Assembly (NCBI GenBank): GCA_029251525.1
Contig: JAQXDE010000055.1
Location: forward strand, 248,001-312,000
Length of the DNA stretch: 64,000 nucleotides
Direction of reading: 5' to 3'
Source: Saprospiraceae bacterium
GTDB taxonomy: Bacteria > Bacteroidota > Bacteroidia > Chitinophagales > Saprospiraceae
The translations under genes and the position numbers were made by a program. Shown here piece after piece: positions 51,876-60,035 of this stretch (position 1 is the stretch's first letter; each line of letters begins with the position of its first letter). The notes below the pieces were generated by a model that was given only the letters and a program-made list of their open reading frames with translations, had not been told where the DNA came from and made no database searches.

Positions 51876-52895
51876 TTAAATCTCCCAAGTTACACTCCCG
51901 GCTATTAATTGATCCAAATTTCCTTCCCCTTTCTGCTCAATTGCTTCATTCAACTGAGCCAATAATTGATCCTCATAACAAACTCTTTCTGAAGAATACA
52001 AAACGCCAAAAGGCCTTGGTAAAAAACCTTCTTGTCGAGGATCGTCAAAAAAGCGAGCTAACATTTGAGCTTTGTACAAATCACCTTCATCGTGAATCCA
52101 GAGATCATCTTTTGAATAATTATCTATTTCTAAATCAATAACTTGTGGCTTCCAACCGTCTAGTCGAATACCCTTTTCGTTATTTTCTCCGAATACTAAA
52201 GGTTGACCATCTTCTAAAAATATGGCAGAAGATTTCTTGGTGGCTTTGTCTGTAAACGTGAAAAATGCACCATCGTTAAAAATGTTACAGTTTTGGTATA
52301 TTTCTAAAAAAGAGGATCCCTTGTGTAGATTAGATCGCTTCAGCATTGTTTTCATATGCTTTGGATCTCTATCCATTGATCTAGCCACAAATGTCGCATC
52401 TGCACTAATTGCAACTGCTAGTGGGTTAATAGGATGATCAAGTGATCCCATTGGAGTACTTTTCGTTCGTTTGTCGACCTCGGAAGTGGGCGAGTATTGT
52501 CCCTTGGTCAAACCATAAATTTGATTGTTAAATAACAATATGTTCACATCTAGGTTTCTTCTCAAAATATGTAGCAAATGATTTCCTCCAATACTTAATC
52601 CATCACCATCGCCTGTGATAATCCAAACACTTAGGTCAGGATTAGCAATTTTCAAACCTGAAGCTACTGCTGGTGCACGGCCATGAATCGAATGCATACC
52701 ATAAGTATTCATATAATACGGAAATCGAGAAGAACAACCTATTCCTGAAATAATCGCGACCTCATCTGGATTCATTTCTAACTCAGCAAAAACTTTTTGT
52801 ACTTGTGCAAGGATACTATAGTCACCACAGCCCGGACACCATCGAACATCTTGATCAGTGGTAAAGTCTTTTGCTTTTAAATTGTTTTTTGTCAT
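51876..52895 (-). CDS. korB: 2-oxoacid:ferredoxin oxidoreductase, beta subunit
   Basis: The 339-aa subunit binds thiamine diphosphate and the 4Fe-4S cluster of a ferredoxin-dependent 2-oxoacid oxidoreductase. Visible are WCPGCGDY (residues about 19-26), GIGCSSRFPYY (about 51-61), the TPP motif GDGDGLSIGGNH ... NNQIYG and a further Cys in YQNCNIF, giving the four cluster ligands. The HGRAPAVASGLK stretch is typical of KorB/OorB. It works with KorA (53509-55356). Whether 2-oxoglutarate, pyruvate or a branched-chain acid is used cannot be told. It ends near moaA. Confidence 0.93.
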   Translation of the reverse strand: MTKNNLKAKDFTTDQDVRWCPGCGDYSILAQVQKVFAELEMNPDEVAIISGIGCSSRFPYYMNTYGMHSIHGRAPAVASGLKIANPDLSVWIITGDGDGLSIGGNHLLHILRRNLDVNILLFNNQIYGLTKGQYSPTSEVDKRTKSTPMGSLDHPINPLAVAISADATFVARSMDRDPKHMKTMLKRSNLHKGSSFLEIYQNCNIFNDGAFFTFTDKATKKSSAIFLEDGQPLVFGENNEKGIRLDGWKPQVIDLEIDNYSKDDLWIHDEGDLYKAQMLARFFDDPRQEGFLPRPFGVLYSSERVCYEDQLLAQLNEAIEQKGEGNLDQLIAGSVTWEI

Positions 52896-52930
52896 GATTT
52901 ATGATTTTGATACAGATTCGCGATGACTCT

Positions 52931-52972
52931 ACTGACTTTCTTAGAATAAATTTCCACGCTAAGAAAGTCAGT
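52931..52972 (-). promoter_or_regulatory. 14-bp hairpin between the small membrane gene and korB
   Basis: ACTGACTTTCTTAG (52931-52944) pairs perfectly with CTAAGAAAGTCAGT (52959-52972), loop 14 nt. No T run follows on either strand, so it is not a typical terminator. An RNA processing or stability element inside the kor transcript is possible. Confidence 0.5.
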
Positions 52973-52993
52973 TAAAATTGTGTTTGTCTGTAG

Positions 52994-53233
52994 CTATTTT
53001 TTTTTTCTTCTTTGCGCTTCTTTCGAATATTTGCTAGCTTGGAAAATAAATGGAAAGCTCAATAATAAACCTCCTAATGCATATAGTTCCATTCCTTTGT
53101 GCTGAGGATTGTAAACAATAAAAACTTCCAACAAAATGAAAACTGTCGCTGGAATCATTCCCCAAAGGAGATATTCTTTGCGCCTTTGTTGAACGGTTTC
53201 ATTGGATAGACGGTGTAAAGGATTTTCTTTCAT
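52994..53233 (-). CDS. Small two-helix membrane protein between korA and korB
   Basis: The 79-aa protein has a polar N-terminus with RRKEY, two hydrophobic helices (about 22-40 and 48-66, the second ending FIFQASKY) and a very basic tail (KEAQRRKKK), predicting both ends in the cytoplasm. No known motif is recognised. It is on the same strand as korA (275-nt gap upstream) and korB (98-nt gap downstream). The position between two subunits of one enzyme suggests co-expression, perhaps as a membrane attachment for the complex, but that is only inference. Composition and start context look like those of a real gene. Confidence 0.65.
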   Translation of the reverse strand: MKENPLHRLSNETVQQRRKEYLLWGMIPATVFILLEVFIVYNPQHKGMELYALGGLLLSFPFIFQASKYSKEAQRRKKK

Positions 53234-53508
53234 ATTTTTTTGTTTAAAAAATCTATTGGTTAATATATTCTCAATATTTGGGACTTTTATTGCAAAAAAA
53301 CAAAATCCTCATTCGGAAATAATAAATTTCTCAATCTCAAATCCTCATTTTGTATATTCATTAGAATCTTCAAAAAATGTAGTTCAATCATTTTCGATGA
53401 ATGCTAAAATCGTAAAATCGTAAAGTTTAAAGTATTATAATTCAGTATAAAGAGAAATCTAACCTTTTACTTTGAAATGTTGGATGCGCAAGTCTGAAAC
53501 TAGATTTC

Positions 53509-55356
53509 TTACATATTCTCCAAAACTTCCTTAATCGCATATTTCAATTCCGCTTTCATAATTGGAACTCCTTGTATTTTATTAAACTGAATTACATCAA
53601 TTAGGAATTGGTCACGAATCACTTTTGATAATTGACCATTATTGATTTCTGGAATCATTATTTTTTTATAGTTCTTCAAAATCTTTCCCAAATTCTTTGG
53701 GAAAGGTCGTATATAGCGCAAGTGAGTATGTCCGACTTGGAGACCTTCCGCAACTAACTCTTTCGTAACCGATTCAAGAACGCCGTAAGTAGAACCCCAC
53801 CCGAGAATCAATAAGTCTCCTTTTTTTACACCCATTGTAATTTTTTGCTCAGGGATGAAATCTGCAATTTTATCAACTTTAGCCTCTCGGGTTTTGATCA
53901 TATATTCATGATTTGCAGGATCATAGGAAACGTTCCCCGTATTCGCCTCTTTTTCTAATCCCCCTAAACGATGAGCCAATCCTTTGGTGCCAGGCAACGC
54001 CCATTCTCTAACTAGTTTTTCATCTCGCAGGTAAGGCAGAAAAGTTTTATCTTCTCCAATTGGTTTTTTAAAATTAACTTTAATTGAAGGAATATCTCCT
54101 GCATTTGGAAAACGCCAAGGTTCAGCTCCATTAGCAATATACCCATCACTCAATAAAATAACAGGAATCATATGTTGTACCGCAATTCGACAAGCTTCCA
54201 TTGCTACCTCAAAACAGTCTGATGGTGAACTCGCAGAAATTACTGGCAAAGGACATTCTCCATTTCGTCCATACATAGCCTGCAACAAATCGGACTGCTC
54301 TGTCTTTGTCGGCAAACCAGTCGATGGTCCACCTCGTTGCACATTCACTACGACTAATGGTAACTCCAACATCATCGCCAAACCGATCGCTTCGCCTTTA
54401 AGTGCCAATCCAGGGCCAGATGTTCCAGTTATTCCCAAATCTCCCCCGTATGACGCTCCGATGGCAGAACAAACTGCTGCAATCTCATCTTCCGCTTGGA
54501 AAGTTTTGACGCCATAGTTTTTATGTTTAGCTAAACCATGTAGAATATCAGATGCAGGTGTGATTGGATAACTTCCGTAAAAAAGAGACAATTTAGATTT
54601 CCGAGCAGCAGTAATTAATCCAATCACTAAAGCTTCATTCCCTTTGATACTTCGGTAAGTACCTTTTTCCAATGGGGCAGGTTTTACCTTATATTGAGTA
54701 GTAAAAGTTTCGGTTGTGTCGCCGTAATGATAACCAGTTTTGATACACTTGATATTGGCTTCAAGGATATCTTGTTTCTTTGCAAATTTTTGAGTTAAAA
54801 AATCAATTGTTCCTTGCATCGTTCGATCATATCTCCAATAAAGAAATCCTAAAACGAACATGTTTTTACATCGATCCTTTTCTTTTGTACCGAGAGGTGA
54901 TTCTTTTAATGCTTCTCGTGTAAGTTTCGTTATATCGATTTTGAAAACTTCAAAGTTGGCCAAAGATTCGTCCTCTAAAGGATTTTCTCCGTCGGCATAT
55001 TTCGCTAAACGAAGGTTCTTTTTGTCAAACCCGTCAGTGCTTAAAATAATTGTTCCTGTTTTTTTGATATTCGTCAAGTTCGCTTTTAGTGCAGCGGCGT
55101 TCATTGCTACGAGAACATCACACTCATCTCCTGGTGTATAAATTTTTCGACTTCCAAAATGTAATTGAAAACCTGAAACTCCCGCCAAAGTTCCAATTGG
55201 AGCTCTAATTTCTGCTGGGAAATCAGGAAAAGTGGCCAAATCACTTCCTGTTAGGGCCGTATTACCGGTAAACAAACTACCTGTCAATTGCATTCCGTCG
55301 CCAGAATCACCAGCAAATTTTATCGTTATTTCTTCTTTTTCTATTTTGGTACTCAT
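53509..55356 (-). CDS. korA: 2-oxoacid:ferredoxin oxidoreductase, fused gamma-alpha subunit
   Basis: I use the ATG at 55356 (615 aa, MSTKIEKEEITIKFAG), since the extra 16 codons of the longer frame are rich in Arg and Lys, unlike family N-termini, and overlap the promoter. Residues about 10-190 are the gamma domain (FAGDSGDGMQLTG, AEIRAPIGTLAGVSGFQ), and about 210-615 the alpha pyrimidine-binding domain with YPITPASDI, FQAEDEIAAV and the ITGTSGPGLALKGE loop. The alpha-gamma fusion is the usual form in aerobic Bacteroidota. With KorB it would oxidatively decarboxylate a 2-oxoacid to acyl-CoA while reducing ferredoxin. Confidence 0.94.
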   Translation of the reverse strand: MSTKIEKEEITIKFAGDSGDGMQLTGSLFTGNTALTGSDLATFPDFPAEIRAPIGTLAGVSGFQLHFGSRKIYTPGDECDVLVAMNAAALKANLTNIKKTGTIILSTDGFDKKNLRLAKYADGENPLEDESLANFEVFKIDITKLTREALKESPLGTKEKDRCKNMFVLGFLYWRYDRTMQGTIDFLTQKFAKKQDILEANIKCIKTGYHYGDTTETFTTQYKVKPAPLEKGTYRSIKGNEALVIGLITAARKSKLSLFYGSYPITPASDILHGLAKHKNYGVKTFQAEDEIAAVCSAIGASYGGDLGITGTSGPGLALKGEAIGLAMMLELPLVVVNVQRGGPSTGLPTKTEQSDLLQAMYGRNGECPLPVISASSPSDCFEVAMEACRIAVQHMIPVILLSDGYIANGAEPWRFPNAGDIPSIKVNFKKPIGEDKTFLPYLRDEKLVREWALPGTKGLAHRLGGLEKEANTGNVSYDPANHEYMIKTREAKVDKIADFIPEQKITMGVKKGDLLILGWGSTYGVLESVTKELVAEGLQVGHTHLRYIRPFPKNLGKILKNYKKIMIPEINNGQLSKVIRDQFLIDVIQFNKIQGVPIMKAELKYAIKEVLENM

Positions 55357-55384
55357 TTTCTTTTTTCTATTTCGAAATCGACCG

Positions 55385-55392
55385 CAAAGATA
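55385..55392 (-). promoter_or_regulatory. Predicted -7 box for korA
   Basis: On the minus strand this reads TATCTTTG, an exact TAnnTTTG match, placing transcription start about 22 nt before the ATG at 55356. This supports the shorter korA start. Confidence 0.5.
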
Positions 55393-55819
55393 GGAATATA
55401 ACACTTGCGAATGAAAAGAAGTTTAGAGAAATCAAAAAGTGGTTTTTATTGGGAATTAGTTGCTTTTTTACTGTATTTATGGTTAACGAATTGAACTTTA
55501 ATATTGAGATATCATCAGTAATTCCGTTATTTTATATATTAAGAAATATATCTAAAATGAGAAAATAATTAATGAATTACTTTTTTGCCCATCATTGCTT
55601 TAGCTCGATATGGTATAAAAAATGTCATACCGATTTGGATTTGGAAATGGTATAATTCTAGATTCGTACATATCTATTTATGTTTTCTGAGAATTGGAGC
55701 TGATGTCAATTATCCAATTGTAAATGGATTACTTTTAGCTTATTCATGGTTGGAAAGACTTAACGTAAATTCGCGTTGCTTTTTTTTGATAAAATGGTGA
55801 CAAAAGTCATTGTTTTAAT

Positions 55820-55833
55820 GTGATCAATATCAC
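55820..55833 (+). promoter_or_regulatory. Candidate Crp/Fnr-family operator
   Basis: GTGAT-CAAT-ATCAC is a perfect 5-bp palindrome around a 4-nt spacer, the geometry of Fnr-type sites (TTGAT-N4-ATCAA). Its centre is about 43 nt before the start expected from the -7 box at 55856-55863, close to the -41.5 position of class II activators. Confidence 0.4.
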
Positions 55834-55855
55834 TTTCGTTCAAATTTTTTTATAG

Positions 55856-55863
55856 TAAATTTG
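55856..55863 (+). promoter_or_regulatory. Predicted -7 box of the candidate small RNA
   Basis: TAAATTTG matches TAnnTTTG exactly. The -33 region has only TTTCG, as expected if an activator at 55820-55833 is required. Transcription would begin near 55870. Confidence 0.45.
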
Positions 55864-55869
55864 TTTACA

Positions 55870-55977
55870 CTATGAAACATATTTTTATGTGAAACACTAT
55901 CGTCAAGATCTTTAAATCGTTATTATCCTAAAAAACCTAAATGGCCTCGCATCATTAATTTGATGTGAGGTTTTTTT
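55870..55977 (+). ncRNA. Candidate small RNA of about 108 nt
   Basis: No gene of meaningful length lies between a predicted promoter (55856-55863) and a strong terminator (55945-55977). The RNA would start with a short hairpin (ACATA-TTTT-TATGT, 55877-55890), pass through an unpaired A/U-rich middle and end in the terminator stem. A 6-codon ORF (ATG at 55872, stop TGA ending 55892) is its only coding potential. A Crp/Fnr-like palindrome upstream suggests control by redox or nitrosative state or by a nucleotide. It could instead be an untranslated leftover of a deleted gene. No known RNA family was recognised. Confidence 0.45.
55945..55977 (+). terminator. Rho-independent terminator without an upstream gene
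   Basis: CCTCGCATCA (55945-55954) pairs with TGATGTGAGG (55961-55970) through ten pairs including one G-U, loop TTAATT, followed by seven T. The nearest + strand gene upstream ends at 48820. Confidence 0.85.
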
Positions 55978-56491
55978 AATGCTAAAGATTTCTTGTCACA
56001 TTCACTAAATTTTTTTTTATTTCTTGTAGGTTTTATTTCTGTGAAAATTGATTTTTTGTTTTAAATCATGTGATAATAAAAGAAAATTCGTTTCCCTCAG
56101 ATTCCATCTATTCCAAGTAAAACAAGGGGTAATAAAAAGGGTGAAAAATAATTTAAAATTTTAAATGATTTGCCACAACCTTTTCGTTTGGTAAACTGAG
56201 AATAATAATGAACCAATTTTTTTAAACAAAGAAATGAGGATTGATTTAATTCCTCCGGTTAATTCCTACATCAATAAATACTTTTTACTTTGGGATAGAA
56301 ACGGGGATTGATGTTTTTGTTAAAGAAGGCTAAAGATTGGATTTGACTGTTTTTCACTTTAGAGACAATTATTTAGGAGATATTAGTTTAGTCTGGATTA
56401 ATTAATTCATCTAATATTTTAACCGTTTTATATTTTTTTATTTAATAAACCGTTAAATAAGGTATTTTTAATTTTAAAAATAAAACTCAAA
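55978..56491. other. Gene-free stretch before the lipase-like gene
   Basis: These 514 nt are AT-rich with no credible ORF, repeat or promoter match to TAnnTTTG. The remainder of the gap to korA (55405-55819) likewise shows only one poor open frame, 55585-55800, judged spurious. Confidence 0.4.
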
Positions 56492-57400
56492 ATGCGAAGT
56501 ATCCTTTTTTACATTATTCTATTTTCCTCCGTTCTTTCTTCCTGTCAAAAAAACGGAGTGACAACTCCTTATGAATATGCTTTGCTTAGTGCCCATGTCT
56601 ATGATGATAAAGATAGAAAAGAGTTGCCCAGTCATTTAAATCAATTTTTAGATTTTGATGAAGAAAATTATAAAGCTCGATTGAATATCGACTTGGGTAA
56701 AGTAATTAATATGGTAGATAATGAAGATTGGAGTGCTTTGATTCCATATGTTGGCGCCAAAACATTAGCAAGGGGAGGGTATTTTGGAAGAGCTTACGTC
56801 AATAAAAAAATGAATCATTTAATCGTTGCACATCGAGGAACTGATCTGAATATAAAAATGAATGAGTTGTCTCTGGATCAAATTTCGATTGCTTTGGATA
56901 ATGGGAAAATTTGGGATATGATAAAAGACATGGATGATGACTATGATATATTTCATGGAAAAATTCCTTTGCAGCAGTTTGAAGCGGCACAGCATTTTGT
57001 TGGAGAAGTAAAAGAAAGTTATGTCGAAAAATATAAAAAATCACCCCAAATAATTCATACAGGTCATTCCCTTGGTGCAGTTTTAGCTGAACTTTGTGCA
57101 GTGAAAGATAATTCGAAAGCAATTACTTTTGAAAGTCCTGGTTCTAAGCCATTGGCCTTGCAACTTGTTGATATTCAATATATTGATATCGAAAATGTAG
57201 ACATCACTACCTACAATGCAGAACCTAACCAAATTAATACGTTACATGAACATTTAGGAAAAGTGATTCCATTATACGATAAGCCAAAATTACAATCTGC
57301 TCATTCTGATACAGAAAAAATATTATCTTTGAAATTACATCCTATCAAGGAATTACTCAAAAGGTTTGATGAAAAAAATGGGGAACCAAAACATCCGTAG
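56492..57400 (+). CDS. Class-3-lipase-like lipoprotein
   Basis: The 302-aa protein has a lipoprotein signal peptide with lipobox LSSC (Cys18). The alpha/beta-hydrolase hallmarks are visible: the nucleophile elbow GHSLGA (Ser193) and an upstream AHRGTD (114-118) of the type that forms the oxyanion region in class 3 lipases. A likely acid lies among the Asp/Glu after strand 6 and a candidate His in the C-terminal part (LHEHLGK or AHSDTEK). Phospholipids, acylglycerols or other esters could be substrates. It is convergent with the subtilisin-like gene. Confidence 0.8.
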   Translation: MRSILFYIILFSSVLSSCQKNGVTTPYEYALLSAHVYDDKDRKELPSHLNQFLDFDEENYKARLNIDLGKVINMVDNEDWSALIPYVGAKTLARGGYFGRAYVNKKMNHLIVAHRGTDLNIKMNELSLDQISIALDNGKIWDMIKDMDDDYDIFHGKIPLQQFEAAQHFVGEVKESYVEKYKKSPQIIHTGHSLGAVLAELCAVKDNSKAITFESPGSKPLALQLVDIQYIDIENVDITTYNAEPNQINTLHEHLGKVIPLYDKPKLQSAHSDTEKILSLKLHPIKELLKRFDEKNGEPKHP

Positions 57401-57425
57401 CACAATACTTAGAGCTTAGGGTATC

Positions 57426-57462
57426 AAAAAAAGCGGCGATGAAATTGCTAATTAGCTTTTTT
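57426..57462. terminator. Possible bidirectional terminator
   Basis: AAAAAAGC pairs with GCTTTTTT across a 20-nt loop between two convergent genes. The stem is short and mostly A-T, so the call is tentative. Confidence 0.45.
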
Positions 57463-57483
57463 CTGAAATTTTTTCTAATTCTT

Positions 57484-59160
57484 TTAATCCTTTGCGACTA
57501 GAAACTTTTCTGTCGAATAATCTAAGTTATTAGAAATTCTTAAAAAATAAACTCCTGTTTTCAAAGCACCTACTCCTTCAACTTTAAATTTTGCTGGTAA
57601 AAATTCCTTAGCTGTGAAACTAGTTTCTGCCATCAATTGGCCAATCGAATTAAAAATTAGCACCTCGTAATCACCATATTGATTTGGCGTAAACGCTACT
57701 TCGATAAAGTCAGAGGTTGGATTAGGATGAATAGAATTTATTGTCAAAAGATCAATCCCACTTCCACAAAAGTCATTGATTAACTCCATACTCTTTAGTA
57801 AATTAAGTCTTCCCTCCGAACTAGTTTTTCCAATTTGATCATCTTTTTTATCGACACCTCCAAGAATAAAATCTCTCATGATCAAGGAAGTCTCTTTCGG
57901 ATCTTCTCGAGCAGCTAGTGCTAATTTTTCGCAAGGCAAGCTGTATAATAACGCAATTCCGCCAGCCACATGCGGTGCAGCACCAGAGGTAGACCCTATA
58001 GTTGAGTAGGTATTATCCGCGCCAGTTGTTGGTGACCCATCACCAGGAGCAGTTAAGTCGACATTGATTTTCCCATAGCCAGAACTTAATTCATCTTGCT
58101 TGTCACTTTCTGCTACGACTATTAAATGTTCCGTTTGACAAATCGAAGGCATATCGCCCACTTCATCTACATTGAGCGTTTTGTTGTTGGTAGAACCAAC
58201 ATTTAAAACACCAACCTCTCCGAGCATTTCATGAACCTCACACCAAATTGGAAATAACGGATTATCAGATATTTGTAATCCATCAGGGTAATCTGGACTA
58301 TCTCCATCGATACCAAATGAACCATTAGAGGCAACGACGAATGCACCTTTTTGACCGTTTGATTCATTGTATAATTTTCGATTTTGGTAAACATATTCGT
58401 ATCCTTCAATGATTTTATCAACTTGCAGATTATTTTGAATCCACATAATTTTTACATTCCAATTGACTCCAGCAATTCCCATCTCATTATCACCACTTGC
58501 TCCAATAATTCCTCCTACTCGAATACCATGACCTTGAAAATCAAATCCAATTATGTCAGAAGAGTCAACCACATTCCATCCAAAATAATCATCAATAAAA
58601 CCATTTTCATCGTTATCAATTCCATCATTATTTATTTCATTCCAATTGATCCAAACATTATTTATCAAATCATCATGTCGCCAATCACCACTTTCCATCA
58701 TCGCTACCACAATGGTATCCCCCAAGGCAGTTACTCCTCCTGTGGTAATTTCCCAAACCTCTGGAGCGTTTATTATTTCCATATCCCATTGGCTTGTGTA
58801 CATCGGATCGTTAGGGACTCTTTCTCTTGGTTGTAACTGAAAATTCTGTCCAGCAATTTTTACCTCAGGTAGAGACGTTAAATTCATTAACAATGCATTT
58901 ACATTCTGAATGTCAGTTTTGGATTTTAAACTGTATAGATTGAGTCTTTCGGAAATTTTATTTTCTTTTTGAAAAATAACACCAGATTCAGCCCATTGGT
59001 TATTTATCTTTTGAAAAAAACTAGACGAGTTTGTTTCTGGTTCAAGTTGAATGATAAATTCATTTGGAATATATCGTATAGATGAGTTTTCCTTTTGGGA
59101 AAAAAGAGGTAAGGTCAAAATAAATAGAAGAATCGTCCATAAGGATTTCATATTTCTCAA
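57484..59160 (-). CDS. Subtilisin-family (S8) protein with altered catalytic Asp and T9SS tail
   Basis: The 558-aa protein has a signal peptide (about 1-21), an I9-like propeptide region (about 28-110) and an S8 fold (about 120-455). The catalytic His (FQGHGIRVGG, H211) and Ser (STSGAAPHVAGG, S392) are in place, but the Asp motif, usually VIDTG, reads MMESG, with Glu156 (codon GAA) in the Asp position. The usual oxyanion AGN block is replaced by NVGSTNN (320-326). The second His of HGTHVAG is Arg214. The C-terminus (about 475-558, HPNPTSDFIEVAFTP ... FLVAKD) is a Por-type T9SS sorting domain. It is exported but may be of low activity or a pseudo-protease. Start could be 59160 or the Met at 59151. 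Confidence 0.87.
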   Translation of the reverse strand: MRNMKSLWTILLFILTLPLFSQKENSSIRYIPNEFIIQLEPETNSSSFFQKINNQWAESGVIFQKENKISERLNLYSLKSKTDIQNVNALLMNLTSLPEVKIAGQNFQLQPRERVPNDPMYTSQWDMEIINAPEVWEITTGGVTALGDTIVVAMMESGDWRHDDLINNVWINWNEINNDGIDNDENGFIDDYFGWNVVDSSDIIGFDFQGHGIRVGGIIGASGDNEMGIAGVNWNVKIMWIQNNLQVDKIIEGYEYVYQNRKLYNESNGQKGAFVVASNGSFGIDGDSPDYPDGLQISDNPLFPIWCEVHEMLGEVGVLNVGSTNNKTLNVDEVGDMPSICQTEHLIVVAESDKQDELSSGYGKINVDLTAPGDGSPTTGADNTYSTIGSTSGAAPHVAGGIALLYSLPCEKLALAAREDPKETSLIMRDFILGGVDKKDDQIGKTSSEGRLNLLKSMELINDFCGSGIDLLTINSIHPNPTSDFIEVAFTPNQYGDYEVLIFNSIGQLMAETSFTAKEFLPAKFKVEGVGALKTGVYFLRISNNLDYSTEKFLVAKD

Positions 59161-59219
59161 GTTTTAATTTCTTAAAATTTTGTAACAATATATTTAATCT
59201 GTTGACCTTTAAATTTTTA

Positions 59220-60035
59220 TTAAGTTAGGTCTTTGTTATCAATACTTAACCTCAGATTTTTGAGGTAGGAACCAGCTAATAATAAGCGATTTCCATACCA
59301 TGAAAAAATCTCTCCATCTACTAATCTGATTTCAGCATTTGGACAAATAATTTGTATTTCATTTACGTGTTTTTCATTAAATGGGAAGGGTTCAGATGAA
59401 AGTAAGATTACATCAGGTTTTGTTACCGCTAATTTTTTATCTGAGACCTGAGGGTAACGAAATTCAGAGTCAAAGATATTTTCAAAACCTGCTATTTGCA
59501 ACATCTCGTTAATGAAAGTTTGACTTGCTGCTATCATTGTTGGATTTTTCCATATTAGGTATGCAGCTCTCGGGCGATGTGATAATTGTCGTATAACTTG
59601 TCTGCATTGTTCAAATGAAATTTTGATGTTTTTAATCAGTTTATTAGCTGCTGACTTTTTATTTACCATCTTTCCAATTTCCAAAATCATTTCTAAAGCA
59701 TCCTCTAAGGTGAAAATATCACTCATCCAAATAGGATATTCTTTTTTTAATAATTCAATTTGAGCTTGATCATTTTCTTCTTTATTTCCAATAATCAAAT
59801 CTGGTTTGAGGGATTTGATCTTTTCAAAGTCATATTTCTTTGTGCCACCAACTCTTGGTTTTGATTTAAACATAACGTGAGGATGTATACAGAATTTTGT
59901 AATCCCAACCACTTCTTTATCAAGTCCCAAATAGAAAAGCAATTCAGTTTGCGAAGGAACAAGTGAAATGATTCGACAGGGTTGAGTTGGAATTTTTACT
60001 TTCTGTTGCATCTGGTCGATGACGAGGTGGTGCAT
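59220..60035 (-). CDS. BtuF-like (Peri_BP_2) metal-chelate binding protein without signal peptide
   Basis: The 271-aa protein has the helical-backbone metal-receptor fold: RIISLVPSQTELLFYLGL (residues about 21-38), VGITKFCIHP, VGGTKKYDFEKIKSLKPDLIIGN (about 62-84) and LAVTKPDVILLSSEPFPF (about 190-207). Members bind cobalamin, haem or siderophores for ABC importers. Here the N-terminus (MHHLVIDQMQQKVKIPTQP) has no signal peptide or lipobox, and no BtuCD genes are adjacent. Either the protein acts in the cytoplasm or it has another role; the family call is firm, the location is inferred from the sequence. Confidence 0.82.
   Translation of the reverse strand: MHHLVIDQMQQKVKIPTQPCRIISLVPSQTELLFYLGLDKEVVGITKFCIHPHVMFKSKPRVGGTKKYDFEKIKSLKPDLIIGNKEENDQAQIELLKKEYPIWMSDIFTLEDALEMILEIGKMVNKKSAANKLIKNIKISFEQCRQVIRQLSHRPRAAYLIWKNPTMIAASQTFINEMLQIAGFENIFDSEFRYPQVSDKKLAVTKPDVILLSSEPFPFNEKHVNEIQIICPNAEIRLVDGEIFSWYGNRLLLAGSYLKNLRLSIDNKDLT

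Follow-up and report, generated by a model that had tools for sequence, protein, structure and literature searches.

A predicted family of eight Crp/Fnr-activated sibling small RNA genes in a Saprospiraceae genome

Relation to described small RNAs

Sibling small RNAs (sRNAs) and FNR-controlled sRNAs such as FnrS are already known kinds of regulator. FnrS of Escherichia coli is an FNR-activated, short intergenic RNA with a Crp/Fnr-type operator and an intrinsic terminator (PMC8139620), and the unit analyzed here, termed W, shares this layout and is likewise proposed to be induced together with a respiratory or redox regulon. W differs from FnrS in its Bacteroidota promoter, in belonging to a set of eight siblings where FnrS is a single gene, and in the lack of an Rfam match. 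Searches of the window (the whole stretch of 64,000 nt analyzed, C25:248001–312000) with Rfam covariance models gave no match to an sRNA family, FnrS included, and the same models gave chance-level matches only (E up to 5) on two loci. The one element of the window scoring above the Rfam gathering threshold was a TPP riboswitch aptamer at 144–237.

The sibling families OmrA/OmrB, PrrF1/F2, the csRNAs and Qrr likewise comprise several related sRNAs per genome, at tandem and distal positions (PMC4211561), and resemble the present set in combining shared with divergent segments under a common transcription factor, the latter being a prediction here. The review table of sibling sRNAs gives 2–6 siblings per genome, and its text does not mention Bacteroidetes (PMC4211561); the present family differs in having eight units, in being confined to one species of its genus and in matching no Rfam model. 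Within the Bacteroidota, GibS of Bacteroides thetaiotaomicron and Rfp18 of Flavobacterium psychrophilum are intergenic sRNAs like W (PMC7366714, PMC9723704), and GibS has a terminator at its end and an unstructured 5′ end that pairs around start codons (PMC7366714). By their descriptions both differ from W: each is conserved in its genus, and neither is presented as one of a set of Crp/Fnr-controlled siblings. A literature search found no paper on sRNAs in Saprospiraceae and, within the reach of the searches, neither the sequence family nor its host group nor the set of eight has been described. Little is known of regulatory sRNAs in Bacteroidota.

Promoter, predicted transcript and surroundings of unit W

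The source genome, from an uncultured member of the Saprospiraceae, comprises 5.25 Mb in 66 contigs, and the genomes used for comparison (G001, G004 and others) are relatives, the named ones being Saprospiraceae MAGs. Unit W lies in a gap of 1.1 kb without an intact gene, bounded on the left by korA (minus strand, ATG at 55356) and on the right by a class 3 lipase-like gene (56492–57400, Pfam Lipase_3). The gap holds two remnants of a decayed outer-membrane-type protein gene, both on the plus strand: an N-terminal one at 55576–55741, recognized by blastn/tblastn against G004 and G001, and a C-terminal one at 56182–56319 (blastn, 71% over 141 bp). W sits between them, and the gene is intact in at least two congeners, G004 and G001 (226 or 216 aa). 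A role of the unit as promoter of the downstream lipase gene was rejected on account of the distance (>600 nt) and the terminator in between, and the hairpin was rejected as a korA terminator because korA reads in the opposite direction, away from it. As a separate observation, the palindrome GTGATagaaATCAC occurs ~90 bp upstream of korA in congener G001 (L043 1404–1417) and is absent upstream of the window korA.

A preliminary description of this DNA had proposed a regulated sRNA behind a perfect GTGAT-N4-ATCAC palindrome and an exact TAnnTTTG box, and both elements were recovered. The proximal Crp/Fnr-type operator GTGATcaatATCAC occupies 55820–55833 (no strand assigned), and the window has no exact GTGATN4ATCAC besides this match, GTGATCAATATCAC, with 0.09 expected from shuffles. 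The box TAAATTTG (55856–55863, plus strand) is an exact TAnnTTTG, reported as the sigma-A −7 box at −12 to −5 in Flavobacterium (PMC9723704), and is separated from the operator by exactly N22, the canonical spacing. With a transcript start predicted 5 nt after the box (~55868, range 55867–55869), the operator centre would fall at −41.5, a class II position; the palindrome does precede the start as claimed, but its centre moves from the −43 estimated earlier to about −41.5 when the box spacing is used. The W promoter would thereby fit a class II Crp/Fnr-activated layout, with a two-fold GTGA/TGAT-type operator near −41.5. A second palindrome, TGACaaaaGTCA (55798–55809, no strand assigned), lies upstream of the proximal operator at a centre-to-centre distance of 23 bp, and the same doubling precedes units A and D1 of the family as well as usp/cbb3-island genes of relatives. 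This second palindrome, the decayed gene around W and the seven paralogous units were all absent from the preliminary description.

The predicted sRNA of ~110 nt (55868–55977, plus strand) is delimited by the −7 box spacing and the terminator and is further suggested by the lack of an ORF of at least 20 aa and by the seven paralogues. It begins with the segment ACACTATGAAACA (55867–55879, plus strand), a candidate seed that, by comparison of units, is common to B, C3, C2 and D1 as UGAAACA/UGAAAUA. A conserved 3′ module predicted to be single-stranded, TTATTATCCTAAAAAACCTAAATGG (55920–55944, plus strand), was defined by alignment of the eight units and the covariance model R2, and is followed by the intrinsic terminator (55945–55977, plus strand), a CCTCGCATCA/TGATGTGAGG hairpin of 10 bp (55945–55970) with seven T. 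The strong terminator and the gene-free stretch noted at the outset were thus confirmed, the terminator being the best such site within 52000–60000 and the predicted transcript containing no ORF of at least 20 aa (~80 nt are ORF-free before the hairpin). The 109-nt RNA of W folds better than 200/200 shuffles (z −3.4). With its own predicted promoter, no ORF, an intrinsic terminator and a length within 50–300 nt, W has the attributes expected of an intergenic sRNA gene. A type I toxin-antitoxin unit was rejected, the transcript being without an ORF of at least 20 aa.

Operator–promoter architecture, regulon and candidate regulator

The palindrome alone is weak evidence, GTGATN4ATCAC having nine exact sites in the own genome vs six in the reversed control. 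The combined pattern GTGATN4ATCAC-N{16,30}-TAnnTTTG gave 39 matches in 100 relatives vs about ten in the reversed control, and 34 of these 39 were at N22 or N23, with 15 gap lengths permitted (binomial 5e-25, a value that assumes even spacing and counts orthologous sites as independent). When at most two mismatches were allowed at N22, the counts were 25 vs 5 in the control for the own genome, 37 vs 4 for G001 and 21 vs 1 for G004. Operator and box at a fixed N22–23 spacing are far above chance and form a real regulatory architecture. At a locus from another genus (L080, G024:C690, 1501–1600), an operator at N23 is followed within ~60 nt by the −7 box and a GC-rich hairpin, and a long ORF is lacking; this is possibly an unrelated Crp-driven short transcript.

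Genes directly behind this architecture include those for MBL-rhodanese, single rhodanese, thioredoxin, peroxiredoxin, HMA-domain, YceI-like, DUF2202-like and Usp proteins, names that were assigned partly by sequence recognition and partly by Pfam scan. The MBL-rhodanese is of the persulfide dioxygenase type (Pfam Lactamase_B and Rhodanese). Near-matches to the architecture precede Usp genes and the cbb3/CcoI island; in G001 and G004 this large island (L199/L200, G001:C344; L201/L202, G004:C77) combines usp genes, PAS kinases, a CcoI-type ATPase and cbb3-oxidase-like genes with several architecture sites, many of which have a second palindrome 22–23 bp upstream, like W. The genes downstream of the architecture form a coherent regulon with a sulfide/persulfide and microaerobic signature; as for the signal, low oxygen or NO is a guess.

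The own genome encodes nine PF00027 (Crp/Fnr-family) proteins, none of which matches the length of the receiver-cNMP-HTH hybrid regulator encoded in the G001/G004 island. One of the nine, L117 (L161 6938–7588, minus strand, C24), adjoins MBL-rhodanese, sulfate-permease (SulP) and NrfD-type genes and has a CSMSFSCCM cysteine motif and the recognition helix SREAISR. In CRP/FNR proteins, the CRP-type Arg reads the G of GTGA and the FNR-type Ser reads the T of TGAT. SREAISR contains both residues, so that the specificity predicted for L117 is GTGAT. L117 is thus one candidate among the nine for binding the operator of W, and it may be a sensor of persulfide or redox state. In G082 (L078), the gene of a related regulator is itself preceded by the same operator.

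Eight sibling units, their distribution and their origin

Inspection of gene-less operator sites led to locus L107 on C34, where two tandem units share the 3′ module of W; a covariance model built from this module (R1) then yielded further units, and a second model (R2) was built from all eight. The units occupy four loci – W on C25, A and B on C34, C1, C2 and C3 on C32, and D1 and D2 on C61 – giving W seven paralogues in tandem arrays of two, three and two. The siblings are intergenic, ORF-free, terminator-ended and mostly tandem. A Crp-like palindrome is present in 8/8 units, and, except in D2, a −7 box stands at N22 (N23 in C2). UGAAACA or UGAAAUA occurs at the inferred 5′ end in five of the eight, and the 3′ module AAAACCnAAATgrCCTTgCAT, with variations, precedes the hairpin in all of them.

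Homology extends to the body between promoter and 3′ module, with z values against shuffles of 5.2 for W–B, 4.4 for W–C3, 11.0 for B–C3 and 11.8 for D1–D2. Between siblings the −7 box is 92% identical, the operator half-sites 75% and the 22-nt spacer 43%. Four hairpin pairs show changes on both sides, and 88.8% of the hairpin cells are paired vs 34–43% in slid controls, although with eight sequences the covariation support is small (27/500 in the shuffle control). W is among the most intact units; C2 and D1 (terminators) and D2 (−7 box) look partly decayed, and part of the family may therefore be dead. Taken as genes, the units would form a sibling sRNA family, several homologous sRNA genes being predicted in one genome.

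R2 recovered the same eight units in the own genome (E 1e-5 or lower). It found no convincing match in 59 relatives, nor outside the own genome in 398 family genomes drawn evenly (own included), the large searches having used stricter filters by which diverged copies were possibly missed. None of the four congeners sampled has the unit, and BLAST against 60 relatives gave scattered weak matches, the best being ordinary terminators or unrelated DNA. Among the R1/R2 matches from other genomes (E 2e-5 to 0.1), those inspected were rejected as plain terminators after ORFs or tRNAs, with no operator or −7 box. The family therefore appears lineage-specific, found in one genome among ~400 Saprospiraceae searched. 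Conservation of palindrome and stem, named in the preliminary description as a check, was found between paralogues (hairpin changes, half-sites) but not between species, the four congeners and the ~400 genomes being unit-free; with no copy in other species, the RNA has no cross-species conservation.

The C34 array fills a 1.56-kb NRAMP–rlmN gap that in G001 measures ~0.4 kb, about 1.1 kb shorter, and is unit-free. Together with the position of W inside a dead gene, this argues for recent gain, as judged from the loci. No shared flanks were found among the loci beyond the units, and a phage or plasmid origin was rejected, the W insert being unmatched in phage records and the C32 array in plasmid records.

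The alternative that survives best, although we consider it unlikely, is that the units are a dispersed repeat carrying a Crp/Fnr-responsive promoter and a terminator, perhaps transcribed and with no regulatory function of its own. The restriction of the family to one genome, the replacement of part of a dead gene by W, the C34 array in a gap ~1.1 kb shorter in G001 and the decay of some siblings would all be consistent with such a repeat. The lack of common flanks and of phage or plasmid matches speaks against it, as do the intactness of W, the absence of ORFs from the units and a constraint that is uneven and focused on the functional elements. It is far less likely that W is the remnant promoter and terminator of a lost protein gene or operon: the same architecture usually drives protein genes and a pseudogene surrounds the unit, but the pseudogene derives from another gene, the intact homologues of which in G001 and G004 have no such promoter inside, and it is improbable that eight units with one short layout each arose as a separate leftover. 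Equally slight is the chance that the product is a very small protein or leader peptide, e.g. the six-codon ATGAAACATATTTTTATGTGA at 55872; W and sibling B do have ATGAAACA followed by a six-codon frame near the 5′ end, but in D1 the frame shrinks to two codons and in A, C1, C2 and C3 it is missing or lacks an ATG; it also opens just a few nt from the predicted start of transcription, and the transcript has no ORF of at least 20 aa. A chance coincidence of palindrome, AT-rich −7 box and terminator would fit the very slight enrichment of GTGATN4ATCAC alone (9 vs 6 in the control) and the abundance of −7-like boxes in AT-rich DNA, but is scarcely credible given the fixed operator–box spacing, the regulon and seven homologous units, whose homology would have to be an artefact.

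A Crp/Fnr-regulated sRNA, as first proposed, thus remains the best reading, since the promoter architecture recurs before genes and the unit recurs seven more times. The segment 55798–55978 is quite probably a single gene, W, from a family of eight Crp/Fnr-activated sibling sRNAs, encoding an RNA of ~110 nt that is likely trans-acting. We infer its transcription, activator, signal, trans action and targets along the following lines. A Crp/Fnr-family activator would bind GTGAT-N4-ATCAC at about −41.5, possibly helped by the second site 23 bp upstream, and bring sigma-A RNA polymerase to TAAATTTG by class II activation, with transcription then running from ~55868 to the intrinsic terminator ~110 nt on. 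All intact units would be switched on together under microaerobic and/or sulfur-stress conditions, each giving an RNA of roughly 90–115 nt with a mostly unpaired 5′ end and 3′ module. The RNAs would most likely act in trans by base pairing with mRNAs for as long as the regulator is active and, by analogy with GibS and FnrS, would tune the mRNAs belonging to the opposite metabolic state. Complementarity was scanned across 836 predicted start regions from 1.23 Mb of genome sequence; the TGAAACA complement was in weak excess (7 vs 2 in the control), and neither a strong duplex nor a convincing target emerged.

If this reading is true, the units are an undescribed sRNA family whose regulator class, promoter logic and paralogue set were defined from sequence alone. 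The sibling set is absent from close relatives, and the birth and spread of sRNA genes would therefore be directly testable here. More tentatively, and as a possibility we would not yet favor, the units may be self-contained promoter–RNA–terminator cassettes, recently expanded, that spread into dead genes and intergenic regions of one species and couple post-transcriptional control to a respiratory or sulfur regulon of Crp/Fnr type. In this way an entire network of sibling sRNAs could arise within one genus.
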